A DNA stretch of 64,000 nt, taken from NCBI GenBank assembly GCA_008727115.1, contig CP044131.1, positions 1 to 64,000 of the forward strand, in the 5' to 3' direction. Position numbers and translations under genes: made by a program. Under the pieces are notes generated by a model that ran no database searches, was not told where the DNA came from, and saw only the letters and a list, made by a program, of their open reading frames with translations. Source of the DNA: Comamonas testosteroni (lineage in GTDB: Bacteria > Pseudomonadota > Gammaproteobacteria > Burkholderiales > Burkholderiaceae_C). This document shows positions 1 to 32,786 of the stretch, in pieces; position 1 is the stretch's first letter; each line of letters starts with the position of its first letter.

Positions 1-1407
1 ATGACAGAGGAACCAACCAATGATGCAGGCCAGGCCCTGTGGCAGGTCTGCGTTGAGCAACTGGGTCAGGAGCTGCCCGAGCAGCAATTCAACACCTGGA
101 TCAAGCCGCTGACGGCACTCGTTGCAGAAGATTTTTCCAAGGTCACAGTCTATGTGGCCAACCGCTTCAAGCTGGATTGGATCCGTGCCCAGTATGCAGG
201 CCGCATCTCGGCCATGCTGGAGTCTCTCTATGGCCAGCCTGTTACCCTTGAGTTAGCACTTGCTCAGCGAGAAAGCGTTGTGCGTACTTATGTGCGTCCG
301 CCATCGGCCACGCAGCAGTCCGCACCGCAGACGCACAATGTTGCCGTCCCCACGGTCACCAGCGAAGAGGCCAGCCCACCGGTATTCCGCACCCGCCTGA
401 ACCCCGCACTCACCTTTGAGACGCTGGTCGAAGGTACGGCCAACCGCATGGCCCGCTCGGCCGCCATGCACGTGGCTGGCTCGCCCGGCCACCTCTATAA
501 CCCGCTGTTCATCTACGGCGGTGTCGGCCTGGGTAAGACCCACCTGGTGCACGCTGTGGGTAACCAGCTGCTGCAGGACAAGCCGGACGCCAAAATTCTC
601 TACATCCATGCCGAGCAATTCGTCTCGGACGTGGTCAAGGCCTACCAGCGCCGTACCTTTGATGAGTTCAAGGAACGCTATCACTCGCTCGATCTGCTGC
701 TGATCGACGACGTGCAGTTCTTTGCCAACAAAGACCGTACGCAGGAAGAGTTTTTCAACGCCTTTGAAGCCCTGCTGGCCAAGAAGAGCCACATCGTGAT
801 GACGTCGGACACCTACCCCAAGGGTCTGGCCAATATTCACGAGCGTCTGGTTTCGCGTTTCGACTCCGGCCTGACGGTGGCGATTGAGCCGCCCGAGCTG
901 GAAATGCGCGTGGCGATTCTGATCAACAAGGCCAAGGCCGAGAACGCCGACATGCCCGAGGAGGTCGCCTTCTTCGTGGCCAAGAACGTGCGCTCCAACG
1001 TGCGTGAGCTCGAAGGCGCGCTGCGCAAGATTCTGGCTTACTCACGCTTCAACCAGAAGGAAGTCTCGATCCAGCTGGCCCGCGAGGCGCTGCGTGACTT
1101 GCTCAGTATCCAGAACCGTCAGATCTCTGTGGAAAACATCCAGAAGACGGTGGCGGACTACTACAAGATCAAGGTCGCCGACATGTACAGCAAGAAGCGC
1201 CCGGCCAGCATCGCCCGCCCGCGCCAGATTGCCATGTACCTGGCCAAGGAGCTGACGCAAAAAAGCCTGCCCGAGATCGGCGAGCTGTTTGGCGGCCGCG
1301 ACCACACCACGGTACTGCACGCGGTTCGCAAGATTTCTGGCGAACGTCAGACCAATACCGAGCTGAACCAGCAATTGCATGTGCTGGAGCAAACGCTCAA
1401 GGGTTAA
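1..1407 (+). CDS. dnaA: Chromosomal replication initiator DnaA
   Basis: Initiator ATPase that binds 9-bp DnaA boxes and opens the origin. The 468 residues show all the family parts: an N-terminal DnaB/DiaA interaction domain (about 8-85), a variable linker, an AAA+ core with Walker A GGVGLGKT at 173-180 and Walker [10 protein letters not shown] at 232-240, and a C-terminal DNA-binding domain with the signature GGRDHTTV at 431-438. The length is normal. The gene starts at the first base of the window, so its promoter and any origin upstream are not visible. The stop codon TAA abuts a MITE-like inverted repeat. dnaN follows after 398 bp on the same strand. Confidence 0.99.
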
Positions 1408-8374: not shown

Positions 8375-9670
8375 TCAAGGCTGAATCAGGGGCAGGTCGC
8401 CACTGGCCAGCCGCACTTCCCATTCGGCATCCAGCATGTCCTTGACCAGCTCCAGATGCTCCAGCCGGTGCTCGGTAATCGAGCCCAGGGCATCGATCAA
8501 CTCCAAAATGCTTCCCATGCCCAGTTTGTAGGCATCCTGAGCCATCTGATGCAGTGGAGCAATCTGCGCCAGCCCTTCTTTCTCATAGTCACGCACGGCC
8601 GTGCGGCGCAACGTCAATTGCTGCAAAGAGCGCTGCAGCTCGGACTGTGCGGCAAGCACTGTCGCATCATGTCGCAACTGCGCCTGATCAGCCTCGACCT
8701 TGGCACGTTCAATCGGGCCTTGGCGACGGTCGAACAACGGTATCTCCACACTCACGCCCACCTGGTTGAAGCTGCCATCCATGCTGTTGCGAACTCGGGA
8801 AAGGCCGAAGGATGGCGTGGGCAATGCCTCTCGCTGCTCCAGCTTTACTTTCTGGCGTGTCTGATCGAGCTCTGCCTGCGCTGCTCTCAGGCTTGGGAGA
8901 CGAGTCTGAGCCGTATTCCACAGCTGTTCATAACTGGGAGCCTTGCGCAAATCGGCAGCCTGCAAACTGCCTTCCACCCGCACCTGCCATTGGGGCATGG
9001 CAGCAATGGTAGCGACCCGCGATGCTGCATCACGCAGCGCTGCCTGGGCCTTACTCACCTGCATGCTCATCTGAGCCTGTTGCAGGTTCAGGCGCGCGCC
9101 GTCATAGCGACTGCGCGTACCTGCTTCGATCTGGCCCTTGACGATGCCCCCCGCTTTCTCCAGTTCATCGCGCGCAGCCAGCCACACCTGATAGCGCTGC
9201 TGGGCCACCAGCAACTCGTTGAAGGCATGGGCTGCATCACTCATAGTGACGGCAACCGCAACATCGGCATTGGCCGCTGCAAACTTTTCGCCAAGACTGG
9301 CGTTTTCCATGCGCATGCCGCGCTGGCCAAAGATGGGAATGGGCTGTTCCACACCCCACTCTTTTTCGCCACGCTTGCTGGAGTAATGCATGGAGGGATT
9401 GGAAATGGTGGCCGCTGTTTTGCTGTCTGCCCTGGCCAGATCTCGCTGCATCATGTCTGCGGCCAGATTCGGCTGGTTCTGGACGACGATGCGCAGATAT
9501 TCCTGCAGGGTCACGGCCTGCACAGGAGCTGCCATACGCCCAGCGGCGACAGTGTTCTGTACAGGTGTGCTGATCGCCTCGGCTGCATGCCCCGTGCTGC
9601 TGAAAGCGCCACCATAGAGCGCTACCGCCATGGCCAGAGAGTGCCACTTATTCATCTTGTGCGCTTTCAT
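8375..9670 (-). CDS. czcC: Outer-membrane efflux component, CzcC/TolC type
   Basis: 431-residue outer-membrane factor forming the exit channel of a tripartite metal pump. A signal peptide ends near STGHAAEA, followed by two repeated coiled-coil (OEP) halves rich in Ala, Gln, Leu and Arg. The ATG at 9670 is preceded by AGGAAG with 6-nt spacing and overlaps the end of czcA by 23 bp, which fits translational coupling. An internal ATG five codons later is possible. The length matches CzcC-like proteins (about 420). Confidence 0.9.
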   Translation of the reverse strand: MKAHKMNKWHSLAMAVALYGGAFSSTGHAAEAISTPVQNTVAAGRMAAPVQAVTLQEYLRIVVQNQPNLAADMMQRDLARADSKTAATISNPSMHYSSKRGEKEWGVEQPIPIFGQRGMRMENASLGEKFAAANADVAVAVTMSDAAHAFNELLVAQQRYQVWLAARDELEKAGGIVKGQIEAGTRSRYDGARLNLQQAQMSMQVSKAQAALRDAASRVATIAAMPQWQVRVEGSLQAADLRKAPSYEQLWNTAQTRLPSLRAAQAELDQTRQKVKLEQREALPTPSFGLSRVRNSMDGSFNQVGVSVEIPLFDRRQGPIERAKVEADQAQLRHDATVLAAQSELQRSLQQLTLRRTAVRDYEKEGLAQIAPLHQMAQDAYKLGMGSILELIDALGSITEHRLEHLELVKDMLDAEWEVRLASGDLPLIQP

Positions 9671-12008
9671 CGCGTTCTTCCTGCGTCAACATGTTCTTGG
9701 GGCCCAGCAAGGCATACAGCACCGGCAATAGCACCAAGGCCACCAGTGGCAGCACCACCATGCCACCCACGATGACCGATGCAAAAGGCCGCTGGGTTTC
9801 ACTACCCACACCGGTCGACAAAGCCATGGGCAACAAGCCCAGCAGTGCCAGCAACGACACCAGAACGATGGAGCGCATGCGCTCGGCAGCCCCTTCAATC
9901 AAGGCCTGCATCAAGGGCATGCCCTGGCGGCGCAAGTCTTCAACCGCAGACACCACCAGCAAGCCCGCCAGTGCCACCTGTCCCAGCAGAGCGATAAAGC
10001 CAATGGCGGCACTGATGGACAGCTCAATCTGCGCCAGATGCAAGGCAGCAATACCACCCACCATGGCAAACGGAGCACACAGCAAAATGACACCGGCGCT
10101 GCGCGACTGACCCAATGCTCCAAACAGCAGGGCAAAGACGATGACCAGCGACAGCGGCACCACCACCTTCAGGCGCGCAGCCGCACGCTGCTGGTTCTCC
10201 CATTCACCGCCCCAGACGGCTTGATAGCCTTCGGGCAGCTTGATGTTCTTCTTGAAGGTGGCCAGCGTGTCCTTGACGACCGAGCCAATATCGCGCCCTT
10301 CAACGTTGAACTTCAGTGCCATGTAACGCGCATTGCCTTCGCGGAAGATGGAGGAGTTGCCAATCTTCATGCTGACCGTACCGACCGATCCCAGAGGCAC
10401 GGAGCCCCCTTCAGGCAGCGGTATGGCGATGTTACGGATACGCTCTTCATCCATGCGATCCACATAAGGCAGTCGCACACGCACCGGCACGGGATATTCG
10501 CCCTCCCACAACGTGGTGGCGACATTGCCGGCCAAAGCCACTTCCAGCGTCTTCTGGGCGGTCTCCATGGCAATGCCCTGGCGTGCCAGCGCTTGGCGAT
10601 CAAATTGCACATGCACCTGCGGTGCCGGAGCATCGCGATACAGGTCCAGATCCACTACGCCATCAATGTCCTTCACCAGCGACTTGGTCTGCTGAAGAAT
10701 GCCGCGCAGCGTGGGAATATCGGGGCCGAACAGCTTGAGCACCACCTGCCCGCGCGCGCCCGATGTGGACTCTTCCACGCTGTCACGAATGGGCTGTGCA
10801 AAATTGAAGGCCACACCCGGAATCTCGCCCAGCGTTGCACGCATTTCCTCAATCAGCGCCGGCTTGGTCAAGTCTTTGCGCCACTCCCCATGGGACTTGA
10901 GGCGTACCAGTACCTTGGCCAGATTGAGCGTCTCGTTGTCGGTGCCCGATTCGGGGCGCCCCTGCTCTGTAGTGACGCTAATGACCTCGGGGAACACCTT
11001 GAGGCGCAGGCGCACATCGCGCAGCACTTCCTGGCCTTTTTCAAGCGAAATGGAGGCAGGCATCTGCACCAGCACATAGGCATCGCCCTCATCCAACTCG
11101 GGCAGGAACTCGGTCCCCAGCCATTTGGCTGAAACCCCGGCCACCACCAGCACGCTCACAAACACGGCAATCACGGCCGTACGGCGTTTGGCGGCTCCCA
11201 GTACGCCGGCAATCCAATGCTGATAACCATGGTGTGCCCGGTCAAAGATCTTGGGCTCTTCCACCATCACATGCTTGGGCTTGAGAAACAGCGCACACAA
11301 GGCCGGCACCAGTCCCATGGCAAACACCAGCGCGCCCAGCAAGGCAAAGCTGTAGGTCATGGCCAGCGGGCGGAAGATGCGGCCTTCAATGCTTTCCAGC
11401 GAAAACACCGGTATCAGCGCCGCAATCACGATGGCCATGGCAAACAGGGTGGGCTTGGCCACGGCGACCGCCGAATCCACAATGATGTGGCGCATGTCAT
11501 TGGCCGTCTGCGGCTTGCGCTGGCGTGCATTGCGGATGATGTTTTCCGCCAGCACCACCGCGCCATCCACCATGATGCCGAAGTCGATGGCCCCCATGGA
11601 GATCAGGTTGGCAGGCATGCCCAGCCAGTGCAGCCCAATGAAGGCCACCAGCAGCGACAGAGGAATCACCGTCGCCACAATCAACGAGCCACGCAGACTG
11701 CGCAGGAACAGCCACAGCACGGCAACAATCAGCGTCGCGCCAAACAGCAGGTTGTGCTGCACGGTCTTGAGCGTATGACCCACCAGATCAGAGCGATCGT
11801 AATTGGTGACCATCTCCATGCCTGCGGGCAGACCACCACCATTGAGTTCGGCGACCTTGAGATGAATCTCGTCCAGAACCGTGGAGGGGTTGGTCCCGCG
11901 CTTGAGCAGCACAATGCCTTGCACCACATCGTCCTGGTCATCCATGCCGACCGAGCCCTGACGAGGGGTATGCGACTGTGCCACACGTGCCACGTCACCA
12001 ATGGTCAC
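9648..12008 (-). pseudogene. czcA: czcA heavy-metal RND pump, C-terminal part (after frameshift)
   Basis: 786 residues covering the rest of the HME-RND transporter from the end of the first periplasmic segment. The motif IDFGIMVDGAVVLAEN (fragment residues 141-156, about 391-407 of the full protein) is the transmembrane proton-relay signature of the divalent-cation group (Co, Zn, Cd, Ni), unlike the Cu/Ag group. The reading frame is separated from the N-terminal part by a one-base deletion in a run of C, near 12009-12012. A GTG at 12006-12008 overlaps the upstream TGA, so low-level reinitiation is conceivable, but without the N-terminal 250 residues the product would not function alone. Confidence 0.85.
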
Positions 12009-12760
12009 GGGGCCTTGCCACGCATGGCCACCACTACATCCTGAATTTCCTGCGGAGTGCGCAGCAAGCCAATGCCGCGAATGATGAAGGACTGCTCGCC
12101 CCGACGCATCAGCCCTCCGCCCACGTTGCGGTTGGACTTGGACAGGGCATCGTTCACATCGTCCAAAGACAGACCCAGGCTGTAGAGCTTTTCTGGATCC
12201 ACTTCAACGTGGAACTCTTTGACGAATCCGCCAATGCTCACCACATCGGCCACGCCCTGCACCTGCTTGAGCACGCGCACCACATGCCATTCCTGCTCGG
12301 TGCGCAATTGCGCCAGGTTGTGCCTGTCACTCTTGAGGCGGTAGTAGAAGATTTTTCCCAGCGGCGTGTAGTCAGGTGCCATTTCCGGCGTCATGCCATC
12401 CGGCAGATCTGCCTGAGGCAGTCGCTGCGAGACCTCTGCGCGCGCCGTAAAACTCTGGGCATCGTCGTTAAAAACAAGATTGATCATGGAGAGGCCGAAG
12501 TAGCTCTCCGAGCGCAGCGATATCAGCCCCGGCGTGCCATTGAGCTCTCGCTCCAGCGGCTGGGTGATCTGACGCTCCACCTCCTCAGGTGCCAGGCCCG
12601 GTGCCTGAGTGATCACCCCGACCTGCACATTGGTCACGTCGGGATAGGCTTCAATGGCTGTCTGCAGATAGGCGTAGACGCCATAAACAGCGATCGCCAG
12701 AGTGGCAAACAATGCCAGCAAGCGACGATGGACAACGAATGCAATAAAAGAACGCAGCAT
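12005..12760 (-). pseudogene. czcA: czcA heavy-metal RND pump, N-terminal part (before frameshift)
   Basis: 251 residues with the first transmembrane helix (SFIAFVVHRRLLALFATLAI) and the start of the periplasmic porter domain, ending RGKAP-stop. The next expected residues, VTIGDVARV, continue immediately in another frame. On the coding strand the sequence AAGGCCCCGTGACC has four C where five would keep the frame, giving K-A-P-V-T. Joined, the protein would be about 1,037 residues, as expected for CzcA. This is either a real inactivation or an error in a homopolymer. It starts 20 bp after czcB. Confidence 0.85.
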
Positions 12761-13944: not shown

Positions 13945-14958
13945 CGTTCACCTGTATGTCCATCACTGACGGGCGACAGGCGGGGCCATGACTTCACCTT
14001 CAGTACTGACTGCCATGCTAGGAACGACGCCTCCTGCCGTGGGTGACGCAAGCATTACGGTTTAGTAAGGCCCTGCAGGTCACCAAGAGCAGATCGACCT
14101 CCATTTCAAAGAGGGCCAGTGCTCAAGACATTCATTGAAGCGGTTTGCTCACTTTTTCATCACTTTCGATGAAAAATCAAAAAATGCTCAAAAAACAAGC
14201 AATTTTGATGTGTTTTTTCATACATGAGTACTACTAGTATCAAAAAATAACGAGGCAACGATGTTCAAGGCAAGTCCTTTGAATTTCAAGAAAAAGTGCC
14301 TCAAACCATTGTCAATCAATGGATAAGTACTATCAAAAGTAGAGCTTGAAAGTTATCCACTCAGTGGATAGATCAAGCACGTCATACGAACTCTCACGCA
14401 TCCATCAACAGAAAAAGCATCTCTGGCATACAAAACGGCTGCAAGCCCTTGAGCCATGCTTTGTTTCACAGATAAAACACCCCTGACAACCTCACAACAT
14501 ACCTGTGGATAAATATCGCATCTTCTTAGCTTCCCAAAGAGAAATTGGCATGAATAAGCTTACTCACAGCGCTTGAAAACTTCAGAATTCCACCTTTATC
14601 AACGACATTCTAAAATCTAAAAAAATCTTTTTATTCATAAAAATTTAACAACATAGTCAACACAGTTAACAACAAGGTTGTAAACATGATTACAACAGGG
14701 GTTGGTCCCTGTTTTTCTGTGGATAAGTTTCTGAAGAACTCCATACTCAACAATCCACAACTACAATGAACAAGTCACATACAAGTGGTGGAGAAGTCTC
14801 TCCAAGAGATTTTCAATGAGATATATCTCAGGCTACACAAACACTGCTGTTTGTATGCCGTATTGCATAAGAAATTCAATCTTATTTAATACATATCTCT
14901 GTACGAATACTTATAAAACGCCAAAGCACAGCGTCTTTGCGTCTCAAAAAACGCTGAA
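13945..14958. other. AT-rich non-coding arm A, candidate origin region
   Basis: 1,014 bp without a gene. The left end (to about 14060) should hold the czc promoter. Further right it carries DnaA-box-like sites: perfect TTATCCACA on the minus strand at 14504-14512 and 14718-14726, TTATCCACT at 14353-14361 within the inverted pair TATCCACT-C-AGTGGATA (14354-14370), and a weaker CAATCCACA at 14751-14759. Between the perfect boxes lies a strongly AT-rich tract; 14581-14640 contains only 14 G or C out of 60. This is the layout of DnaA boxes plus a DNA-unwinding element. That it is an origin is inference. Confidence 0.6.
14609..14650. other. Candidate DNA-unwinding element
   Basis: 42 bp with very few G or C, made of short A and T runs (TCTAAAATC, AAAAAAATC, TTTTTATTC, AAAAATTTAAC). 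It lies between the consensus DnaA boxes at 14504 and 14718. This is the most AT-rich stretch I could see in arm A. Confidence 0.4.
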
Positions 14959-17124
14959 ATGCATGAAAAAAAGTGGGCTGAAGAGGCCCTGAATTCCTTT
15001 GATGCCGTGGTCGGTGCCATGCCTGGATTTCGCAGTCGTGATGGACAGCGAAAAATGGCGGCCCAGATCGCAAAAACCTTGAGCGAAGCCCAGCTCGGAA
15101 AAGTCGATGAAGGCGAGCCAGAACCCCGTCGTGCCATCGCTGTCGTGCAGGCTGGGACCGGTGTTGGAAAGTCGCTGGCCTACAGCATCCCGGCCATTCG
15201 CATGGCACTGTCACGTGGCACGCGGGTGCTGATCTCTACTGCCACCGTGGCACTGCAAGAGCAGTTGGTGAACAAGGATTTGCCAGCACTGGCACAAAAG
15301 CTGGACCAGCCCTTCAAATTCGCCCTGGCCAAGGGGCGTGGCCGTTTTGTCTGCAAGCTCAAGCTGGAGCGCCTCGCAAGCACAGGGGAAGCACAGGATG
15401 AGGAGATGGACGACCTGTTTGGCGATGAGCAAAAACAGACCCAGTTCAAGCGCCCTCAGCACGAGTTGCAGGCGCGCATGCAGTTCTATAAATCCATGGC
15501 CGATGCGCTGGCCACAGAAGCCTGGGACGGCGACCGAGACTCTCTGGAAACACCTCCCGAGGCAGAAGCCTGGAGCCCCGTCGCGGCCGAGTCTTCTTCC
15601 TGCACAGGCAAGCATTGCCCGGCTTTCAGCAACTGTGTCTATTACGAGCGCCGCAAGGACCTAGTGGCCGCGCAAGTCATTGTTGCCAATCATGATTTGC
15701 TGCTTTCTTCGCTGGGATCCAAGCTGCTGCCGGAGCTGGACAACTGCCTGCTGGTGCTCGATGAAGCCCACCATCTGCCCTCCACCGCCTTGGACCAGTT
15801 CGCAGGCGAAATGGATCTGAGTCGCCTGACCTGGATCGACAAACTTGCCAGCCGCGCACTGCGTGTGAATCAGGTCGCAGAAGTAGAAGAGCTGGCCGAT
15901 GTACCCAAACATGCCAGCCAGCTGCGCCAGCAGATGCAGGAGCTGGCCAGACTGGTCATGGAGCACTACGGAGAGGCCCTTAAATCGCAAAAAGACAGCT
16001 ATGGGCCAGCCAGGGTACGAGCAGCCCGTGGCGAGCTGCCAGAAGCGCTTTTAGAGCCTCTGAGCCAGGTTGCGCACCATGCCGACGCCTTTCTGGATGC
16101 GCTGCGTGCTGTCTCCAAGGCATTGCGCGCCGAAATCAAGGACAAGCCCGAGGAAGCACAGCGCCTGTCCACGGTCTATGCGCAGGTGGGTGCCCTGGCT
16201 CCCAGGCTGGAAGCCATCTTCAACACCACGCAATTGCTGCTGCAGAACAATGAGAGCGACGGCGACAGCAAGACAGTGCCCCATGCCAAGTGGTTCACGC
16301 TGGAGATGGATGGGGAGTTCATCGTGGTCAAGGCCCACGCAAGCCCCATCCAGCCTGGCTCCACCTTGCGTCAACATCTGTGGTCACAGGTACGTGGCGC
16401 CGTGCTGACCTCCGCGACGTTGACCAGTTGCGGAAATTTCGACTTCTTTCTGCGCGAAGCTGGGCTGTCCAATGACACAGCAGTCACCACGCTGGAAGTA
16501 CCCAGCCCCTTTGACTATGCGCGCCAAGGTACGCTGATCGCCCGCGAAACCACCTCAGACCCCCGTGAAGCAGCCCGCTTCACGGCAGAAATGGTTGAAG
16601 CTTTGCTGAACGATCTGAGTCGCATTGACGCCGGCGCACTGGTGCTCTTCACCTCACGCGAACAGATGCGCCAAGCCGTGGAGGCACTGTCTACCTACAT
16701 GCGCGATCAAGTGCTCGTTCAGACTGCCCTGCCCCGTCAAACCCTGCTCAAACGGCACCGCGAAGCAGTGGAGATGGGCGAGCCATCCATCATCTTCGGC
16801 ATGCAGTCCTTTGGCGAAGGACTGGATCTGCCGGGAGCGCTTTGCGAGTCTTTGTTCATCACCAAGCTGCCCTTTGCTCCACCCGATGATCCTGTGGGTG
16901 AGGCACGGTCCGAATGGCTGCGCAGCAGTGGCCGCAATCCTTTCAACGAGTTGGTGGTGCCGGCTACAGCCATTCGCCTGGCTCAATGGGTGGGCCGCGC
17001 CATTCGCACCGAGGAAGATCAGGCCCATGTCTACTGCTATGACAAGCGGCTGACGGGCACCAACTACGGCCAGCAATTGATCAAGGGTCTGCCTCCTTTC
17101 ACTCTGCAGCGCAGACCGGTCTGA
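14959..17124 (+). CDS. dinG: ATP-dependent DNA helicase DinG-like
   Basis: 721-residue superfamily 2 (XPD-like) 5'-3' helicase. Walker A is AGTGVGKS at 65-72 and the DEAH box is at 268-271. Four cysteines, C132, C215, C220 and C226, have the same 5- and 6-residue spacing as the Fe-S cluster cysteines of E. coli DinG, and the length is nearly identical (716). DinG unwinds R-loops and D-loops and helps forks pass transcribed genes. Two ATGs lie 4 bp apart; the in-frame one is 14959. No strong ribosome-binding site is visible. The gene stands alone between two AT-rich, DnaA-box-containing arms, an unusual setting. Confidence 0.93.
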   Translation: MHEKKWAEEALNSFDAVVGAMPGFRSRDGQRKMAAQIAKTLSEAQLGKVDEGEPEPRRAIAVVQAGTGVGKSLAYSIPAIRMALSRGTRVLISTATVALQEQLVNKDLPALAQKLDQPFKFALAKGRGRFVCKLKLERLASTGEAQDEEMDDLFGDEQKQTQFKRPQHELQARMQFYKSMADALATEAWDGDRDSLETPPEAEAWSPVAAESSSCTGKHCPAFSNCVYYERRKDLVAAQVIVANHDLLLSSLGSKLLPELDNCLLVLDEAHHLPSTALDQFAGEMDLSRLTWIDKLASRALRVNQVAEVEELADVPKHASQLRQQMQELARLVMEHYGEALKSQKDSYGPARVRAARGELPEALLEPLSQVAHHADAFLDALRAVSKALRAEIKDKPEEAQRLSTVYAQVGALAPRLEAIFNTTQLLLQNNESDGDSKTVPHAKWFTLEMDGEFIVVKAHASPIQPGSTLRQHLWSQVRGAVLTSATLTSCGNFDFFLREAGLSNDTAVTTLEVPSPFDYARQGTLIARETTSDPREAARFTAEMVEALLNDLSRIDAGALVLFTSREQMRQAVEALSTYMRDQVLVQTALPRQTLLKRHREAVEMGEPSIIFGMQSFGEGLDLPGALCESLFITKLPFAPPDDPVGEARSEWLRSSGRNPFNELVVPATAIRLAQWVGRAIRTEEDQAHVYCYDKRLTGTNYGQQLIKGLPPFTLQRRPV

Positions 17125-17202
17125 GAGGCCTTCAGCGAGGCTAAAAAGAGCTTTCAAGCCCCTACCCTGCCTGCACTGTTCAAAGCGATTTGGATCGCTT
17201 CT

Positions 17203-17250
17203 AAGCCTTGTGAGGACCATGACTGGTTGCACAAGGCTTTTGTAATTTTT
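17203..17250 (+). terminator. dinG terminator
   Basis: Ten-base stem AAGCCTTGTG / CACAAGGCTT (17203-17212 and 17230-17239) with a 17-base loop, followed by TTTGTAATTTTT. It lies about 80 bp after the dinG stop. Confidence 0.7.
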
Positions 17251-17920
17251 CTAACAGCTGCATGCCGTCATGCGTAGTAGCAAGCTCCCTCGACAAATCG
17301 ACCTGACCTTCCCGATCTGCCAGAAAAGAAGCGGTGCGGAGACGTCATTGGGAATCTATGCGAATGCAGGATGGAAATCCTGTCCTGATCAGACGCAAGT
17401 CGTACCCACTTCAGCGTTGGCAAGCGGGGCTCTTTCTCTGTGCTTCCTGCACCAAAAACAGGAAATTTCTTTCAAAACAACACCTTACATGTGTTGAATT
17501 TTTTGAATGAAGAAATAACGAGAGCCATCCGCATAACCGCCCTGCGGTGCTTCACCGGATTACCCCCAGCTGTTCATAACATTCTGTTGATAACTATGCG
17601 ATTGAAGGCTCTCCAAGTCCTTCTTATCCCCAAGTCCCTTCATCAGAGGGAGCGCATCTTACGCCAAATTTTCAGACTGGCGCGCTTCAATTTCGATAAA
17701 GCCTTTTTTTGTCATTTTTCCCTTGTCTACAGAGGGATTGAAGGCCTCAGAACCATTCTGACCGCTTCTCTTTTTGATGATCACCAAACTTGTCTTTAGT
17801 TGTTCTTTAGAAGTTTTATAAAAATATAGTCGTAGTAATAAAGATCGACAGATTCTGTGGATAACCTCATAAATCAACGAGAAATCAAGCACTTTTCTAT
17901 GGTGTAAGCATGGAGACAAG

Positions 17921-18011
17921 TAGAGGCTGCTGCTGTCTTCCAGACTTGAACAACTTGCCCTATTGATGAATATCTGTGGAAAACACTGAAATTCATACAT
18001 GCTTGTCCACA
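17921..18011. repeat. DnaA-box module, copy A
   Basis: Begins TAGAGGCTGCTGCTGTC, continues with a CAACTT segment, then CTGTGGAAAACA (box TTTTCCACA on the minus strand) and ends with TTGTCCACA on the plus strand. The same parts in the same order recur at 18350-18452. Confidence 0.6.
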
Positions 18012-18349
18012 TTTTGGCTGTCCTTATAAAAAACTATTTAATCAGCTTTAAATCCTTTATTTATATGTACATGACGCTATTGTTTTTATAGTGAATAACT
18101 TTGATATATGACTTCTCATCACATGGCTTGGCGAGCGTGTGACTTTTAAAAAAGTGTTCGACATGAATTTGTCGGACATTTTTTTTGTCCAAAGCATCCG
18201 TGTATGCTGTGAAAACTTTGACTGAAGTTGTTATTCCTAATCTTACTTTTTTCAATAGTAATAGTAGTAAGTACCCTGCTTAACTGTTGATAACTTATAA
18301 AAGTAAAAGTAAAACAACGACTTAGCTTTGATAAAAAGCTGTGCTCCGA

Positions 18350-18452
18350 TAGAGGCTCCTGCTGTCCTTGTTTTGGGAGCAACTTTTGGGCGATGCATCC
18401 AGCTGTGGAAAACATTGAATTTCAATGGTTTTTATCACCATGTTTATCCACA
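18350..18452. repeat. DnaA-box module, copy B
   Basis: Begins TAGAGGCTCCTGCTGTC, then CAACTT, then CTGTGGAAAACA and finally a perfect TTATCCACA at 18444-18452. Compared with copy A the divergent box pair is about 12 bp further apart. It ends only about 25 bp before the IS target site. Confidence 0.6.
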
Positions 18453-18483
18453 TGGCTTTTAAGAAAGAATAGGCATGAAAAAA

Positions 18484-19948
18484 GGTCCTTCGTCATTTCG
18501 TGTGGAACACAACACTCACAATGCTCCCCTGGTTGTTGAGCCCGGTGGGCATGTGTGCAGGCCGCTGGCCGGCCTGTGCACATGTCCACGAGGCGTGTTT
18601 GATCAGGAGGATGAGTCCATGGGCATTGCCGTAGAAGCTCTGTTCACCAGCGCGCTGGGCTTGCAGCCGCCGTGGGTCGTCGATGACGTCAGGCTCGACA
18701 CCGCCAAGCGGCGTATCGACTTCGAGATCGGCTGCCACACCAGCAGGCTCGCCTGCCCGGCATGCGGTGCGGCCACGCAACCGGTGCACGACCGGCTGCG
18801 CCGATCCTGGCGGCACCTGGACTTCTTCCAGTTCGAGGCCTGGCTGCACTGCGACGTGCCGCGCGTGGCCTGCGGTGCCTGCGGCAAGACCACGCAGGTG
18901 GCCGTGCCCTGGGCGCGTCCGGGCTCGGGCTTCACCGCGGCGTTCGAAGCGCTGGCGCTGACCTTGTGCCTGGACCTGCCGGTGCGCCAGGCCGCCGAGT
19001 TGCTGCGCTGCAAGGACAAGCGGCTGTGGCGGCGCATCGAGTTCTACGTCGCGCAGGCGCGTGCGCTGGAAGACTTCGCCGGCGTGCGCACGGTGGGCAT
19101 CGACGAGACCAGCCTGCGGCGCGGGCAGCACTACATCACCGTCGTGCACGACCTGGATCGCAAGCGGCTGCTGTTCGCCACCGAGGGGCGCGAGCACCGC
19201 ACGGTGGTGGAGTTCGCCGAGGATCTGAAGGCCCATGGCGGCGATCCCGCCCAGGTGCGGCACGTGTGCATGGACATGAGCGCAGCCTACGCCAAGGGCG
19301 TGGCGCTGGCGCTGCCCGAGGCGCAGATCAGCTACGACCGCTTTCACGTCGTCTCGATGGCCATCGATGCGATGGACCAGGTGCGCCGCGCGGAGATGGC
19401 CACCGACGCGCAGGCGGTGCGAGCCGCGCTGGGCGCTGGCGGCCGCAAGACGCTCAGGCAGCTGCTGTGGGGCATGCGGCGCAACCCCAGCACCTGGAGC
19501 GCCCGCCAGCTCGATGCCATGCACTGGCTGCAGCGCTCGACGCTCAAGAGCGCGCGGGCGTGGCGGCTGAAGATGGCGCTGCGCGCGGTGTACGCACGGG
19601 CCACAGCGCACAACAGCATCGAACAGGCCGCATCCGACCTCAGGGCCTGGCTGAGCTGGGCGCGGCGCTGTCGGCTCGAGCCGTTCAAGAAGCTGGCCGC
19701 CACGCTCAAGGAGCGGTTCGACGCGGTGGTGCGCGGCATGGTCGATCACCGCAGCAACGCCTTCGTCGAGGCGATGAACGGGCTGCTGCAGCAGGCCAAG
19801 CGCGCCGCGCGCGGCTTCAGGACGAGCCAGAACTTCATCGCCATCGCCTACCTGCGCATGTCCAAGCTCAAGCACCTGCCGGCCAGTCCGTTCGCGCCAG
19901 CCATGCCGACATGACGCGAAGCGTTTCCACACAAAACGGCATAGAGCC
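18484..19948 (+). mobile_element. ISL3-family insertion sequence, 1,465 bp
   Basis: The ends form an imperfect inverted repeat of about 24 bp (17 matches): left GGTCCTTCGTCATTTCGTGT and right, complemented, GGCTCTATGCCGTTTTGTGT, followed on both sides by GGAA. Identical 8-bp direct repeats TGAAAAAA flank it at 18476-18483 and 19949-19956, the target-duplication length typical of ISL3 elements. Its GC content is much higher than that of the surrounding AT-rich DNA. The transposase reads to the right and is intact. Element boundaries are read directly; the family rests on the transposase. Confidence 0.9.
18619..19914 (+). CDS. ISL3-family transposase
   Basis: 431-residue transposase. An N-terminal zinc-finger (CPACG at 46-50, CGACG at 85-89) is followed by a helix-turn-helix segment and a DDE catalytic core with D162 in GIDET, D219 in CMDMS and E384 in FVEAMNG. 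The ATG at 18619 is chosen because AGGAGGA lies 8 nt upstream; the in-frame ATG at 18475 is outside the element, in the target site. The gene is complete, with no frameshift, so the element may be active. Confidence 0.93.
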   Translation: MGIAVEALFTSALGLQPPWVVDDVRLDTAKRRIDFEIGCHTSRLACPACGAATQPVHDRLRRSWRHLDFFQFEAWLHCDVPRVACGACGKTTQVAVPWARPGSGFTAAFEALALTLCLDLPVRQAAELLRCKDKRLWRRIEFYVAQARALEDFAGVRTVGIDETSLRRGQHYITVVHDLDRKRLLFATEGREHRTVVEFAEDLKAHGGDPAQVRHVCMDMSAAYAKGVALALPEAQISYDRFHVVSMAIDAMDQVRRAEMATDAQAVRAALGAGGRKTLRQLLWGMRRNPSTWSARQLDAMHWLQRSTLKSARAWRLKMALRAVYARATAHNSIEQAASDLRAWLSWARRCRLEPFKKLAATLKERFDAVVRGMVDHRSNAFVEAMNGLLQQAKRAARGFRTSQNFIAIAYLRMSKLKHLPASPFAPAMPT

Positions 19949-19950
19949 TG

Positions 19951-19973
19951 AAAAAAGCCACCTAAAGTGGCTT
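19951..19973 (-). terminator. pagL terminator, partly rebuilt by the IS target duplication
   Basis: Stem AAGCCAC / GTGGCTT with a 5-base loop; read on the minus strand it ends in a run of six T. The T tract on the plus strand (AAAAAA, 19951-19956) is part of the 8-bp IS target duplication. Confidence 0.85.
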
Positions 19974-19998: not shown

Positions 19999-20559
19999 TC
20001 AGAAGTGCCGGGCGTAGCGAATCTGAATGAAGTTTTCTCCGGGGTTGGGGCGCTTGATGCCTGCATTCGAATGGTGCTCCAGTCGAAGGCTGAGTTCGTT
20101 TTTGCGTTGCTCGCCGAACAGATACCCGATGCCTATATGGCTGGCGAAGTTGTATCGGGTGGAGAAGTCTTTGTGGTCCGTTTGGTAGCGGTGGTTGATG
20201 GCATAGCTCACCCCCACGCCTGCTTCCATGAACCAGGGGGATTGGCCCTGATTGGGACGCCAGCGCAAGGTGGGTTTGGCTCCAATGACCCAGGTTGCAC
20301 GGTTGCGGCCCTGGTAGTCGCCCGACCACTGTCCGCCCCAGATATCCCAATAGCCGGTGACCAGTCCCGAACCCAGGGCGTAATTCCAGTCTTTCCAGGG
20401 GATGGTGATGCCTAGCGCCCAGCTATCTGCGCTGTGAGCAGCCTGCCCGTACTGAACATAGAGGGCATTGTTTTGTACAGGTTGTGCAAAGCTTTGGCTG
20501 CATAGAAGTGGGCTCAGCAGCATTGCGCTGCAATAGCTGGCAATCTTTAACGAATTCAT
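19999..20559 (-). CDS. pagL: Lipid A 3-O-deacylase PagL
   Basis: 186-residue outer-membrane enzyme that removes the 3-O-linked acyl chain of lipid A. The signal peptide ends near CSQSFA-QPV (about residue 25). Alternating amphipathic strands fit an 8-stranded barrel. The catalytic region HHSNAGIKRPNPGEN carries the family's H-x-S pair (H162, S164) and a downstream Glu (E175), and the protein ends in an aromatic residue as barrel proteins usually do. The ATG at 20559 has GGAGGG 8 nt upstream; an upstream TTG is rejected. Confidence 0.9.
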   Translation of the reverse strand: MNSLKIASYCSAMLLSPLLCSQSFAQPVQNNALYVQYGQAAHSADSWALGITIPWKDWNYALGSGLVTGYWDIWGGQWSGDYQGRNRATWVIGAKPTLRWRPNQGQSPWFMEAGVGVSYAINHRYQTDHKDFSTRYNFASHIGIGYLFGEQRKNELSLRLEHHSNAGIKRPNPGENFIQIRYARHF

Positions 20560-20719
20560 ATTCAAGTCCCTCCAATTGCATGCATTGCCGCAATGGATTG
20601 AGGGCCGTTGGGGCGTTGCCGATGCTGAAAGTGCTGTGGATATAACGGTAGATTCTTGTGTGTAAATTGCCTGTCGGCAAAGGCGGGTGGCTGCAGTCAG
20701 TCAAGCTGCCAATGGCATG

Positions 20720-20768: not shown

Positions 20769-21326
20769 TTACTGGGCTTTGGCGGGAGCAGGAGCTGGGC
20801 GTTCCTGGCCGGGCTTGCCTGCATGGCGGTGGTGGCCACCGTGCTTGCCAGGGCCTTGGTGCATGCGCAGAGTGGCGCTGTCGAAAGTCTTTTGCTGGTC
20901 AGCGTTCAGCTGGGCATAAAAGGCCTTGGTGGCTTCTGCACGACGGTCCATTTCGGCGTTGCGTTTGGCGCGCATTTCACGCATCTTGTCGAGGCGCTCT
21001 GGGGTGGTCAGCTTGGCAAAGGCTTCGCGGTCGCCACGTGCAGGGCGCTCACCGGGCTTCATGGAGTCGGTGTAGGTGGTCCAGGCGCTTTCCTGGGCCG
21101 CAGTCAGCTTCAGGTCGGTCTTGAGCTTTTCCATGCGCTGCTTCATATGCTCCATGCGATGGCCACGCTTGTCACCATGATGGTGCTTGTGGTGTTCGGG
21201 GGCCTTCTGGGCAGCGGCTGCGGGCTCTGCGGGAGCCGTAGTCTGTGCAAAGCTGGGCAGGCTCAGGGAAGCGAACAGGGCAGTGGCAACAGCGGCACCG
21301 GTCAGTGTTTGGCGAAAGCGGGTCAT
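20769..21326 (-). CDS. Spy/CpxP-family (LTXXQ) periplasmic protein
   Basis: 185 residues with a signal peptide ending ASLSLPSFA, then a His-rich, highly charged helical body. It contains the family's LTxxQ signature as LTAAQ, and a degenerate second one (LNADQQ). Members act as periplasmic chaperones or stress sensors and some bind metal; the His clusters at both ends (HHKHHH, HGGHHRH) suggest metal binding here. The start at 21326 has AAGGAAA just upstream; the longer in-frame extension has no signal-peptide character. It lies next to pagL on the same strand, but each has its own terminator. Confidence 0.82.
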   Translation of the reverse strand: MTRFRQTLTGAAVATALFASLSLPSFAQTTAPAEPAAAAQKAPEHHKHHHGDKRGHRMEHMKQRMEKLKTDLKLTAAQESAWTTYTDSMKPGERPARGDREAFAKLTTPERLDKMREMRAKRNAEMDRRAEATKAFYAQLNADQQKTFDSATLRMHQGPGKHGGHHRHAGKPGQERPAPAPAKAQ

Positions 21327-21433
21327 GTCTATTTCCTTTTCAGATGAAGTGGAAGAAGTAGCCGCTAGATCCTTCGCTTGAAAGGCATTCGGCAGCGGAT
21401 GACTGAAGTGTGAGGGCCCCATGTTTCTGCGGC

Positions 21434-21532: not shown

Positions 21533-21588
21533 GCGTGATTTCAACGTTGAAATTCGCAGGACGACTGAAGATTTAGCAAAGGTTTTTG

Positions 21589-22626
21589 ATGTTCAAGAAC
21601 ATGATTGTTTATCGCATTGCCGAAGGCTGGCAGGGCGATCTGCAGGTGCTGGAAGATGCGCTGCAAAAGACGGTGTTTGCCGAGTGCGGAGCCACGCAGG
21701 AGCGCTCTGTGGGCTGGGTTCCGCCGCGCGGCGAGCAGCACGGCCCGCTGGCCGAATCCGTGGCCGGACAGTGGGTGATGCGCTTCATGAGCGAGTCCAA
21801 GATGCTGCCCGCCAGCGTGCTCAACCGCAAGGTCAACGAAAAGGCCGAGCACATCGAAAAAACCGAAGGTCGCAAGCCCGGCAAGAAAGAGAAAAAGGAA
21901 CTCAAGGACGAGGCCAAGCTGGACCTGCTGCCCATGGCGTTTACCAAGCAGGGCAGCATGTGGGTCTGGATCGATCCGCAGGCGCGTACCCTGGTGCTGG
22001 ACACCAGCGCACAGGGCCGCGCCGATGAGATCGTGACGCTGCTGGTGGAAGGCCTGCCGGGCTTTGCGCTGGCACTGGTCGACACCCAGACCAGCCCGCA
22101 GGCGGCCATGGCGCATTGGCTGATGACGCAGGAGCCGCCAGCGGGTTTTGCGATTGACCGCGAGTGCGAACTCAAGGCTGCGGACGAGTCCAAGGCCGTG
22201 GTGCGATATGCGCGCCACCCGCTCGATATCGACGAGGTGCGCCAGCATATCGAGCACGGCAAGCTGCCCACCAAGCTGGCCATGACCTGGGATGACCGCG
22301 TGAGCTTTGTGCTGACCGAAGGTCTGCAGATCAAGAAGATTGCGCTGCTCGATGCCGTGATGGACGGACAGTCGCAGGACGACGGCGGTTTTGACACCGA
22401 TGTGACGATTGCTACGGGTGAGCTGTCACGCCTGATTCCCGACCTGATCGAGGCGCTGGGTGGGGAAGGGCGCACGGGCCTGGGCGATGGCCTTCCCGCC
22501 TCTTTGCAGGCCGCTCCAGCGGCGGAAACCTTGCCAGTGCGACTGGCGCAGGGACGCAGCCAGGGCACGGTCACAGGGCCTGCGACGGCACCTGCTGATA
22601 CTGCGCCGGAAGAAGCCCCTTTTTGA
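21589..22626 (+). CDS. rdgC: Recombination-associated protein RdgC
   Basis: 345-residue nucleoid-associated protein that forms a ring around double-stranded DNA and modulates RecA. The start MFKNMIVYRI and the internal segments FTKQGSMWVWIDP and LAMTWDDRVSFVL are characteristic. The protein is about 40 residues longer than E. coli RdgC (303), through an acidic Ala/Pro-rich tail. The ATG at 21589 follows AAAGG; an adjacent upstream TTG is not needed. Confidence 0.95.
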   Translation: MFKNMIVYRIAEGWQGDLQVLEDALQKTVFAECGATQERSVGWVPPRGEQHGPLAESVAGQWVMRFMSESKMLPASVLNRKVNEKAEHIEKTEGRKPGKKEKKELKDEAKLDLLPMAFTKQGSMWVWIDPQARTLVLDTSAQGRADEIVTLLVEGLPGFALALVDTQTSPQAAMAHWLMTQEPPAGFAIDRECELKAADESKAVVRYARHPLDIDEVRQHIEHGKLPTKLAMTWDDRVSFVLTEGLQIKKIALLDAVMDGQSQDDGGFDTDVTIATGELSRLIPDLIEALGGEGRTGLGDGLPASLQAAPAAETLPVRLAQGRSQGTVTGPATAPADTAPEEAPF

Positions 22627-28421: not shown

Positions 28422-28437
28422 TGTTTCACGTGAAACA
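28422..28437. other. parS site 2, perfect
   Basis: Exact TGTTTCACGTGAAACA. The symmetry extends to a perfect 22-bp palindrome at 28419-28440. It lies in the mnmG upstream region, 85 bp past the reductase start. Confidence 0.97.
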
Positions 28438-28599
28438 ACAAGCTCAACCCCTGACAAGGCATTGTTGGGCCAATGGTGGGAAAATTGCCGGTTCCCCGCA
28501 GGGCTGGACATGGAGCAAACACATGCCTGCCTGCCATGAGAGCCGAGGCATGGGTGCTTCGTGCAGGGGCAAGGGCCGGGCATGGCCCGGAGCAAGAAT

Positions 28600-30564
28600 A
28601 TGTTGTACCCACAGGAATTTGATGTGATCGTGGTCGGTGGCGGACACGCCGGCACCGAGGCTGCGCTGGCCGCTGCACGCATGGGCAGCAAGACACTGCT
28701 GCTGACCCACAATATCGAAACCCTGGGGCAGATGAGCTGCAACCCCAGCATTGGCGGTATTGGCAAGGGCCATCTGGTCAAGGAAGTGGACGCACTGGGC
28801 GGAGCGATGGCACTGGCCACCGACAAGGGCGGCATCCAGTTCCGTATCCTGAACAGCTCCAAAGGCCCGGCGGTACGTGCCACACGAGCACAGGCAGACC
28901 GCATTCTGTACAAGGCTGCGATCCGCGAGACGCTGGAGAATCAGCCCAACCTCTGGCTGTTCCAGCAGGCGGTGGATGACTTGATGGTGGAGGGCGACCG
29001 CGTGGTGGGCGCCGTCACCCAGGTGGGACTCAAGTTCCGCAGCCGCACTGTGGTGCTGACGGCCGGCACTTTCCTTGACGGCAAGATCCACGTGGGACTG
29101 AACAACTATGCTGCAGGCCGTGCGGGTGATCCTCCAGCGGTGAGTCTGTCCTCGCGCCTGAAGGAACTCAAGCTGCCTCAGGGGCGCCTGAAGACCGGCA
29201 CGCCTCCGCGTATCGATGGCCGCAGCATCGACTTCAGTCAGTGCGATGAGCAGCCAGGTGACGGCATGCCCGGTGGTGTGAACGAGGGTGAAGTGCCCGT
29301 GTTCAGCTTCATGGGCAACCGCGCCATGCACCCCAAGCAGATGCCTTGCTGGATCACGCATACCAATGCGCGCACGCACGAGATCATTCGCAGCGGCTTT
29401 GACCGCAGCCCCATGTTCACGGGCAAGATTGAGGGCGTGGGCCCGCGCTACTGCCCCAGCGTGGAAGACAAGATCAACCGCTTTGCCGATAAGGAAAGCC
29501 ACCAGATCTTTCTGGAGCCCGAAGGTCTGACGACCCACGAGTTCTATCCCAACGGCATCTCGACCAGCCTGCCTTTCGATATCCAGTACGAACTGGTGCG
29601 CAGCATGAAGGGCATGGAGAACGCGCACATTCTGCGTCCCGGCTATGCCATCGAGTATGACTACTTTGACCCGCGCTCGCTCAAGAGCAGCTTTGAGACC
29701 AAGCAGATTCAGGGCTTGTTCTTTGCGGGCCAGATCAATGGCACGACCGGCTATGAAGAAGCTGCGGCCCAAGGCTTGTTCGCGGGTCTGAACGCCGCGC
29801 TGCAATGCCGTGGTGAAGGCCCGTGGCTGCCGCGTCGCGATGAGGCCTATCTGGGCGTGCTGGTTGATGATCTGATTACCAAGGGTGTGACGGAGCCTTA
29901 CCGCATGTTCACCAGCCGCGCCGAGTTCCGCCTGCAGCTGCGTGAAGACAACGCCGATATGCGCCTGACGGAAGTGGGCCGCCAACTGGGCCTAGTGGAT
30001 GATGCGCGCTGGGATTCCTTCAGTCGCAAGCGCGATGCTGTTTCACGTGAAACAGAGCGCCTCAAGTCCACCTGGGTCAACCCCCGCATCGTGGCTGCTG
30101 AAGAGGCGGAGCGTGTGCTGGGCAAGGCCATGGAGCGCGAGTACAACCTGTTCGACCTGCTGCGTCGCCCCGGTGTGGATTACGACAAGCTCATGAGCCT
30201 GAATGCAGGCAAGTACACATCGGCCGAAATGCAGCCAGAGGCACTGGGTGAACTCAGTGCGCCAGCGATTGAGCAGGTGGAGATTGCAGCCAAGTACTCG
30301 GGCTATATCGACCGGCAAAAGGACGAGGTAGAGCGCGCATCGCATATTGAGCGCTTGCGCATGCCTGCTGACTTTGACTACACCCAGGTTGCTGCACTGT
30401 CTTTTGAGGTGCGCCAGATTCTGCAAAAGCACAAGCCGGAAACTCTGGGCCAGGCATCGCGTATTTCGGGCATCACGCCCGCTGCGATTTCGCTGCTCAT
30501 GGTTCATCTGAAAAAAGGTGGCTTCAAGGGCTTCAGCGCTCAGAGTGAAGAGGCATCCGCATGA
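28600..30564 (+). CDS. mnmG: tRNA U34 carboxymethylaminomethyl modification enzyme MnmG (GidA)
   Basis: 654-residue FAD enzyme that, with MnmE, modifies the wobble uridine of several tRNAs. The dinucleotide fold [12 protein letters not shown] (10-20), the segment [15 protein letters not shown] and the C-terminal MnmE-binding domain are all present. The ATG at 28600 is preceded by GGAGCAAG; an earlier in-frame ATG at 28582 is possible. A perfect parS lies inside the gene at 30039-30054, encoding the residues V-S-R-E-T. It overlaps rsmG by ATGA. Confidence 0.97.
30039..30054. other. parS site 3, perfect, within mnmG
   Basis: Exact TGTTTCACGTGAAACA inside the mnmG coding region, read as part of A-V-S-R-E-T. 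Confidence 0.97.
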
Positions 30565-31998: not shown

Positions 31999-32769
31999 AT
32001 GGCCAAAATTTTCTGCGTTGCCAATCAAAAGGGCGGAGTGGGCAAGACGACCACTACCGTCAATCTTGCTGCCGGTCTGGCCAAGGTCGGCCAGCGCGTT
32101 CTGTTGATTGACCTGGATCCGCAAGGCAATGCCACCATGGGCTCGGGCGTGGACAAGCGCGCGCTGGATTTGTCGGTTTATGACGTGCTGCTGGAGAACG
32201 CCAGTGTCAAAGAAGCGGCAGTGCAGTCCGAACAGGTCGGCTACGACGTGCTGGGTGCCAACCGCGAGCTGTCGGGTGCGGAAATCGAGCTGGTTTCGCT
32301 GGAGCGCCGCAACGAGCGGCTCAAAGAGGCGCTGGCCCTGGTGCAGGATGACTATGACTTCGTGCTCATCGACTGCCCGCCTTCGCTGTCCATGCTGACC
32401 CTGAACGGTCTGTGCTGCGCCAATGGCGTGATCGTGCCCATGCAGTGCGAATACTTTGCGCTCGAAGGTCTGACCGACCTGGTCAACACCATCAAGCAGG
32501 TACATGCCAACATGAATCCCGACTTGCAGATCATCGGCTTGTTGCGCGTGATGTTCGATCCGCGCACGACGCTGCAGCAGCAGGTCAGCGATCAGCTCAA
32601 GGAGCACTTTGGCGACAAGGTGTTCGATACCGTGATTCCGCGCAATGTGCGCCTGGCCGAGGCTCCCAGCTATGGCCTGCCTGGCGTGGTCTTCGATGCC
32701 TCTGCCAAGGGCAGCAAGGCCTTCGTCGAATTTGCGCAGGAAATGGTCAAGCGCATCAAGAAGATGTGA
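31999..32769 (+). CDS. parA: Chromosome-partitioning ATPase ParA (Soj)
   Basis: 256-residue Walker-type ATPase with the deviant P-loop [10 protein letters not shown] from residue 11, switch motifs DLDPQGNAT and LIDCPPSL, and no N-terminal DNA-binding extension, as in chromosomal ParA. It drives ParB-parS complexes, and thus the origins, apart. A perfect parS lies 1 bp after its stop codon. parB follows after one intervening gene. Confidence 0.97.
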   Translation: MAKIFCVANQKGGVGKTTTTVNLAAGLAKVGQRVLLIDLDPQGNATMGSGVDKRALDLSVYDVLLENASVKEAAVQSEQVGYDVLGANRELSGAEIELVSLERRNERLKEALALVQDDYDFVLIDCPPSLSMLTLNGLCCANGVIVPMQCEYFALEGLTDLVNTIKQVHANMNPDLQIIGLLRVMFDPRTTLQQQVSDQLKEHFGDKVFDTVIPRNVRLAEAPSYGLPGVVFDASAKGSKAFVEFAQEMVKRIKKM

Positions 32770-32770
32770 G

Positions 32771-32786
32771 TGTTTCACGTGAAACA
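32771..32786. other. parS site 5, perfect
   Basis: Exact TGTTTCACGTGAAACA directly behind parA. Confidence 0.97.

Follow-up and report, generated by a model that had tools for sequence, protein, structure and literature searches.

Does the chromosome of Comamonas testosteroni begin to replicate at dnaA, around the helicase gene dinG, or on one side of that gene only? We address this question for the first 64,000 nucleotides (the window) of contig CP044131.1 (assembly GCA_008727115.1), a genome of one contig of 4,136,480 bases that starts at dnaA. Within the window, dinG is bracketed by two non-coding, AT-rich arms that carry binding sites for the initiator DnaA (DnaA boxes). An earlier note on this DNA had put the arms at about 1.0 and 1.35 kb (we measure 1,014 bp on the left and 1,350 bp on the right, with GC contents of 0.40 and 0.41) and had proposed that together they form a bipartite origin, displaced from dnaA. 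The analysis described here retains the displacement and not the two-armed design: the right arm (~17.6–18.46 kb) is very probably the chromosomal origin of replication (oriC), built from two complete, same-strand copies of a module that is conserved across the family.

A box cluster at the GC-skew switch

The exact box TTATCCACA occurs 28 times in the genome and only four times in the window, at 14504(-) and 14718(-) in the left arm and at 17856(-) and 18444(+) in the right arm, all four as previously listed. The accompanying statement that most box-like sites of the window lie in the arms holds for these exact sites (4/4) but not for sites with up to one mismatch, about half of which (11/23) fall there, three on the left and eight on the right. 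Chance would place 0.27 such sites in the left arm and 0.31 in the right, and 0/500 dinucleotide shuffles equalled the observed count of either arm. The right arm thus carries what an oriC is expected to have, a non-coding cluster of DnaA boxes beyond chance.

It also lies at the GC-skew minimum. Over 124 contiguous kb, from 40 kb before dnaA to 84 kb, the cumulative skew reaches its minimum at 18122, between the two module copies, and shows no switch at dnaA. Further out, skew is positive in all nine sampled 20-kb stretches from 64 kb to 1.93 Mb and negative in all 11 from 2.14 Mb to the contig end, so that 20/20 sampled stretches fit an origin at this point. Because the sampled polarity changes between 1.93 and 2.14 Mb, the terminus would lie there, approximately opposite an 18-kb origin. 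Moreover, GGGNAGGG, which we take to be a word resembling the FtsK-orienting polar sequences (KOPS), is found 19 times forward and 5 times reverse in the nine right-hand stretches, and 3 times against 27 in the 11 left-hand ones. Inside the window, the counts are 0 forward against 4 reverse left of 17.8 kb and 3 against 0 right of 18.5 kb. The suspicion that the origin is displaced from dnaA, here by ~18 kb, is therefore borne out by the sampled skew, with a minimum in the 14–18 kb region and none upstream of dnaA. Given such an origin, dnaA, dnaN and gyrB are indeed transcribed towards the leftward fork, as the earlier note had anticipated.

Anatomy of the twin module

The right arm holds its two module copies on the same strand, 429 bp apart (Table 1). 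Each copy consists of a run of DnaA trios, a 14-bp spacer, box 1, a box 2 that lies 119 bp from it and, in inverted orientation, box 3, which follows after 28 bp in module 1 and 40 bp in module 2. The same plan is seen in C. testosteroni-like loci, where boxes stand at 0(-) and 39(+), at 272(-), 391(-) and 419(+), and at ~701(-), 820(-) and 860(+). Between species, single boxes of this plan shift or are lost, and the same-strand boxes of a unit are 118 or 119 bp apart. The inverted accessory pair in front of the modules likewise keeps its 39-bp spacing in C. testosteroni-like relatives. Upstream of this pair, at 17494–17508, the right arm contains a conserved TTGAATTTTTTTGAA-like element, found at the aligned position in 16/21 loci.

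The trio runs set box 1 of each module apart from the other boxes. Scanning each box, on both strands, for [TA]A[GA] trios on the proper strand across a spacer of at most 16 bp returned at least three trios at two of the eight right-arm boxes (three at 17856, five at 18285; chance ~1% per box), at 0/3 boxes of the left arm and at 0/2 boxes upstream of dnaA. According to the part of PMC8287927 that we consulted, a trio system requires at least three trios, any NAN triplet counting as one, within 16 bp of a DnaA box; both modules have such a run across their 14-bp spacer, as in a basal unwinding system (BUS). The feature is shared widely: of 90 non-redundant modules, 86 have TAGTAG, TAGTAA or TAATAG in the 60 bp upstream of box 1, against 7.4% of shuffles. 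Furthermore, WATCAANNNNTTR, which we take to be the consensus for integration host factor (IHF), is matched exactly in 13/90 modules, always at offset 27 and against 0.1% of shuffles, and CAANNNNTT stands at offset 30 in 58/90.

This anatomy, its conservation and the skew switch are observations, from which we infer DnaA binding, unwinding, a role for IHF and which module fires. In the proposed course of events, DnaA would bind box 1 and be guided across the spacer onto single-stranded trios, opening the AT-rich DNA on the left in the manner of a BUS. Bending at the IHF-like site may then bring boxes 2 and 3 to the complex, after which helicases would be loaded and two forks would depart in opposite directions.

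Specificity and distribution of the module

A simple pattern, TGTKGAYAAN{109,110}TGTGGANAA, is present in 118/300 family genomes, with 0 hits for the backward-read control among the matches listed. For a more sensitive search we used R1, a sequence-only model of 52 modules, two of them from the window. In the genome studied here, R1 finds two strong copies, and the next match scores 14.3 bits. The module is detected in 94/100 family genomes and in 41/41 genomes of the genus (own genome included in both counts), with two copies in 38 of the 41. Since R1 had been given the window's own modules, we also made a leave-out model, R2, of 38 modules that exclude this genus and Delftia-like loci. Searched against the 4.14 Mb of this genome, R2 returns 18284–18455 (49.7 bits) and 17853–18014 (40.3 bits), the other matches scoring 11.1 and 10.9 bits (E up to 1). 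Outside the family, 15/97 genomes of the order match at 1e-4, the best at 45.6 bits. The family is Burkholderiaceae in the wide sense, a placement that follows from the Comamonas, Delftia and Acidovorax relatives.

One arm, two arms or dnaA

If the arms flanking dinG acted together, with the DNA looping across the helicase gene, the left arm should carry origin elements of its own, and some of its features agree with that. Boxes exceed chance in both arms; TGTGGA of the box at -455, on the left, aligns in 14/14 Comamonas/Delftia-like loci compared and has an inverted partner (at most one mismatch) in 13/14, the exception being the window (both counted by eye); and the very AT-rich tract noted earlier at 14609–14650 is real. 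However, the module found twice in the right arm has no strong counterpart in the left (best partial match 8.6 bits), where none of the three boxes has a trio run. Delftia loci L056–L058 have the full right-arm cluster without an exact left-arm box, and at the dinG loci of Acidovorax no exact box occurs within 1.5 kb of the gene. Relatives in which dinG and the module lie apart are the most telling. In C. kerstersii, C. avium, C. aquatica, Comamonas sp. NoAH2 and the metagenome-assembled genome STC155, the first exactly matched module is 2.5–7.4 kb downstream of dinG; in the four named species, the box cluster lies 3.3–7.6 kb downstream. The locus skew minimum of these relatives sits at the box cluster, away from dinG, so that the switch is not tied to the dinG flanks. 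The four named species keep left-arm boxes at dinG, and STC155 has none there. Left-arm boxes thus go with dinG, whereas the origin does not. A likelihood comparison agrees: dinG plus the DNA up to the module fits left-replichore skew better than right-replichore skew in 20/20 scored loci (19 relatives plus the window), with margins of 6.8–102.5 nats on a scale that treats bases as independent and is hence too generous, and the gain is largest where the module lies farthest from dinG. Module content, trio content and relatives together lead us to reject the left arm as one half of an origin, and a bipartite origin around dinG is very unlikely. The left arm is probably not where the DNA unwinds. 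Its boxes most likely form part of the control region of dinG, DnaA control of this gene being the simplest reading and an accessory DnaA-binding site the next. Control of dinG by LexA was considered through the E. coli-type pattern CTGT-N8-ACAG; the window has one match, inside dinG, against 1.01 expected by chance, and we set this candidate aside.

An origin at the dnaA promoter, the usual place in many bacteria, with the boxes around dinG titrating or reactivating DnaA, would draw on the gap between rpmH (named by eye) and dnaA, which contains one exact box 66–74 bp before dnaA and a single-mismatch box nearer to it, at 4136457. E. coli does have DnaA-box sites that titrate or reactivate DnaA. 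Yet these two boxes form no denser cluster of the kind that, according to the earlier note, would speak for an origin there; neither R1 nor R2 has a strong match upstream of dnaA, no trio run is present, and the cumulative skew declines over the 40 kb preceding dnaA and keeps declining as far as 18 kb. The box cluster and skew minimum expected of a dnaA-adjacent oriC are thus both absent, and we rejected this location as extremely improbable. A variant that keeps the location in the right arm holds that the two modules are separate, redundant origins, either of which could fire. Each is equipped with AT-rich DNA, a trio run and boxes of its own, 65/94 positive family genomes show a single module, and in 18/100 genomes neighbouring modules are separated by more than 1 kb. 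Against this, two copies are kept in 38/41 genomes of the genus, and box 3 stands at 28 bp in one type of copy and at 40 bp in the other in C. testosteroni-like and Delftia loci, a difference that suggests a division of labour; we consider redundancy rather unlikely.

A number of points count against the placement of oriC in the right arm alone. The most AT-rich 60-mer of 13945–18474 begins at 14596, in the left arm (83% AT), while right-arm 60-mers at 17786, 18050, 18281 and 18214 have 75–78% AT. Under the looser NAN rule, 17975 and 18003 also pass the trio scan (no left-arm box does), and this rule alone is weak. Neither window module matches the IHF consensus exactly, each being one position off, and 6/100 family genomes have no module at the R1 threshold. 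Whole-genome skew was sampled, at ~11% of the genome rather than as a full curve, and GC skew is in any case a long-term average. The likelihood comparison was given 21 of 69 loci (the window and 68 others), chosen for a box cluster near dinG; one of them, L066, lacks an exact module match and was left unscored, and L099 and L103 have weak left-flank skew. The third-position skew of dinG is intermediate (-0.033), and because the window alone therefore separates the arms poorly, the distinction between them rests largely on relatives. Among other family members, two stretches of genome G004 have the expected skew direction with less than 600 bp to the right of the modules and deserve little weight. 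In seven other genomes with a distant dnaA, a stretch taken between this gene and the module is consistent with an origin at the module in five and inconsistent with it in two (G158 and G263), five of the seven skew values being weak (<0.015). The stretch beyond dnaA has the wrong skew sign in four of the six genomes taken (G223, G158, G121 and G190).

Displacement and splitting of the module in the family

From the pattern search, 20 stretches from 19 family genomes were picked among the matches listed for sufficient flank. Skew is higher to the right of the modules than to the left in 18/18 stretches from other family members with at least 6.6 kb on both sides; in a control of 20 stretches of the own genome, half-against-half skew gave 10/20. 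Annotation of 16 of the 20 stretches shows the pair of an LTXXQ (Spy-like) gene and rdgC in 9/16, rdgC in 10/16 and dinG in 1/16. Among the loci seen, dinG directly adjoins the origin only in Comamonas- and Delftia-like genomes, and the nearest named DinG loci are from Comamonas, at 94% identity.

The distance to dnaA varies. The gene was sought in 36 genomes, and the distance was taken where module and dnaA share a contig: the module lies in the gap just behind dnaA in four genomes (G064, G132, G142 and G165), 29–165 kb away in others and up to 260 kb away in G057. In G142 (locus L162), the module stands between dnaA and dnaN. The place just behind dnaA may be the ancestral one.

Most positive genomes (65/94) have one module only. 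Neighbouring modules no more than 25 kb apart occur in 25 of the 94 (28 pairs, 25 of them same-strand), and at least one pair 2.1–24.2 kb apart is found in 18/100 family genomes. One of these, G034, combines a full with a partial match at a contig end; counting full matches only leaves 17 genomes and 2.1–20.1 kb. Six split loci were inspected for open reading frames (ORFs): G004 and G057 from the 100-genome set, and four from the 300-genome pattern search. All six have genes between the modules: LTXXQ and rdgC in G004, G146 and G296, and rdgC in G057. The intervening DNA of G057 and G146 also holds a Gate-domain gene, and that of G192 and G103 a gene with a PTPS domain. Most of the split-locus modules examined have TAG-type trio runs. 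Such loci are closer to a bipartite origin around genes than is the arrangement in the window. G036 and G093 have oppositely oriented modules ~4 kb apart, unlike the usual same-strand pairs, and the single-contig genome G004 has three modules within 30 kb (G004:C1:40106, 49307 and 69375).

We tentatively suggest, at slightly less than even confidence, that the family shares one portable cassette (trios, box, 119 bp, box, box). This cassette would have moved relative to dnaA, now adjacent to it or 18–260 kb away, and would have been duplicated repeatedly, leaving about one fifth of the genera (18/100) with two copies, nearly always on the same strand, 2–24 kb apart and, in the loci inspected, with genes between them, as twin unwinding sites.

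Comparison with known origins

For this order, an origin displaced from dnaA is no novelty. In the portion of PMC2864759 available to us, chromosome 1 of Cupriavidus metallidurans CH34 has its skew transition ~90 kb from dnaA-dnaN-gyrB; a 213-nt region in front of the transition holds three perfect DnaA boxes, and a perfect box remains upstream of dnaA. Displacement is therefore known, and the likeness to the window consists of a transition far from dnaA, boxes nearby and a box left at dnaA. The same portion describes no trios, fixed spacing or module copies, and the 213-nt region is likely of the window's module type. For chromosome 1 of Burkholderia cenocepacia J2315, the passages seen of PMC4948915 call the exact origin unclear and describe a region with DnaA boxes and AT-rich DNA, and a second box cluster near the skew minimum. 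Compared by description only, boxes and AT-rich DNA are alike, and those passages mention no conserved module. Trios as such are expected, since the consulted part of PMC8287927 reports potential trio systems in 1,755/2,070 predicted origins.

Among well-known systems, the BUS of Bacillus subtilis oriC resembles the window in its trio runs beside a DnaA box over a short spacer and in its AT-rich DNA. It differs in that the window has two tandem modules, boxes at fixed distances of 119 and 28/40 bp, an IHF-like site and no module beside dnaA; the B. subtilis origin is bipartite around dnaA. In E. coli, oriC lies tens of kb from dnaA and has a DnaA box next to the unwinding element and an IHF site. 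The window shares the position away from dnaA, a box by candidate unwinding DNA and an IHF-like site. However, the E. coli-type origin lies between gidA (mnmG) and mioC, whereas the window has mnmG at 28561–30564, at a distance of 10 kb from module 2, and carries the unit in two copies; an origin beside mnmG was accordingly discarded. The bipartite arms of Helicobacter pylori flank dnaA. Two box clusters are regarded there as a single origin, according to the part seen of PMC8235120, and in this respect the two systems are alike; in the window, however, the left arm has no module and both modules lie together on one side of dinG.

A BUS-type origin and a position remote from dnaA are thus already known, and what appears to be new here is the duplicated module of fixed geometry and its split copies. 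Among the titles and beginnings of abstracts listed in literature searches, which took in few subscription journals and no preprints, none describes a conserved, duplicated origin module of fixed geometry, or its split copies, for this family; a prediction for the window position may already stand in DoriC, which lay outside those searches.

Other features of the window

The coordinates of the features discussed are collected in Table 1.

Table 1. Features of the probable origin region and its surroundings in the window (strand ".", not assigned)
Feature	Position	Strand	Basis or remark
dnaA, transcribed towards the leftward fork; 17.8 kb before the start of the modules	1..1407	+	Pfam Bac_DnaA, Bac_DnaA_C, DnaA_N; skew
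Left arm: dinG upstream region with DnaA boxes, without strong module match or trio run	13945..14958	.	model and trio scans
Exact DnaA box, left arm	14504..14512	-	exact match
Exact DnaA box, left arm	14718..14726	-	exact match
dinG (ATP-dependent DNA helicase DinG), Comamonas/Delftia-like neighbour, not part of the origin on this evidence	14959..17124	+	NCBIfam NF008729, 819 bits
Accessory pair of inverted boxes at 17585(-) and 17624(+), each with one mismatch, spaced by 39 bp	17585..17632	.	box scan
AT-rich stretch (78% AT) including module 1 trio run, candidate unwinding site	17786..17845	+	base composition
DnaA-trio run, module 1: TAG TCG TAG TAA TAA, three uninterrupted trios beside the 14-bp spacer	17827..17841	+	trio scan
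Probable oriC module 1: box 1 17856(-), box 2 17975(-), box 3 18003(+)	17856..18011	+	R1 66.4 bits; leave-out R2 40.3 bits
IHF-like site, module 1, between boxes 1 and 2; 12/13 consensus positions	17883–17895		counted by eye
Cumulative GC-skew minimum of the contiguous 124 kb, between modules	18122	.	skew
AT-rich stretch (75% AT) including module 2 trio run, candidate unwinding site	18214..18273	+	base composition
DnaA-trio run, module 2: TAG TAA TAG TAG TAA, 14 bp from box	18256..18270	+	trio scan
Probable oriC module 2: box 1 18285(-), box 2 18404(-), box 3 18444(+)	18285..18452	+	R1 79.7 bits; leave-out R2 49.7 bits
IHF-like site, module 2, between boxes 1 and 2; 12/13 consensus positions	18312–18324		counted by eye
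ISL3-family insertion sequence	18484..19948	+	31 bp beyond the last origin box
PagL-type lipid A 3-O-deacylase gene	19999..20565	-	annotation
LTXXQ (Spy-like) gene, frequent origin neighbour	20769..21422	-	annotation
rdgC, frequent origin neighbour	21586..22626	+	annotation
Perfect parS sites	28422..28437, 30039–30054, 32771–32786	.	consensus match
parA and parB, beside the parS sites	31999–32769 and 33386–34318		

The end of the right arm, given previously as 18475, is not a host gene boundary: an ISL3-family insertion begins shortly after it, flanked by an 8-bp target duplication (TGAAAAAA, at 18476–18483 and 19949–19956). This element, of which the genome has 15 identical full copies (the window's included), separates the origin from the PagL, LTXXQ and rdgC genes and touches no box. 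In C. testosteroni ATCC 11996 (L105), the PagL gene likewise adjoins the origin.

The three parS sites, called with what we take to be the parS consensus, lie 10–14 kb from the origin, one of them inside mnmG. As a marker of the exact origin they were dismissed, since sites at 28.4–32.8 kb mark only the neighbourhood. No RNA genes reach the Rfam gathering score in the window, and no tRNA genes were found in it. On the minus strand at 9648–12760, a CusA/CzcA-type efflux permease of the resistance-nodulation-division (RND) class is present as two ORFs of 786 and 251 amino acids, which is either a broken gene or a sequencing error; the same permease is a single ORF of 1,037 amino acids in L105 and of 1,034 in L058.

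Implications

The module can be found from sequence, and it places one or a few origin candidates of ~170 bp each in 94/100 family genomes, in an order in which the exact origin of a well-studied member is called unclear in the passages seen of PMC4948915. It also advises caution in placing origins by dnaA, as a record that starts at dnaA need not start at the origin. The fixed 119-bp spacing is a possible structural requirement of the DnaA complex, which can now be tested, and twin modules allow one to ask if two unwinding sites can serve a single bacterial chromosome. If the cassette proposal is right, chromosomes with split copies would start replication from twin unwinding sites, either as two alternative origins or as one origin that spans kilobases.

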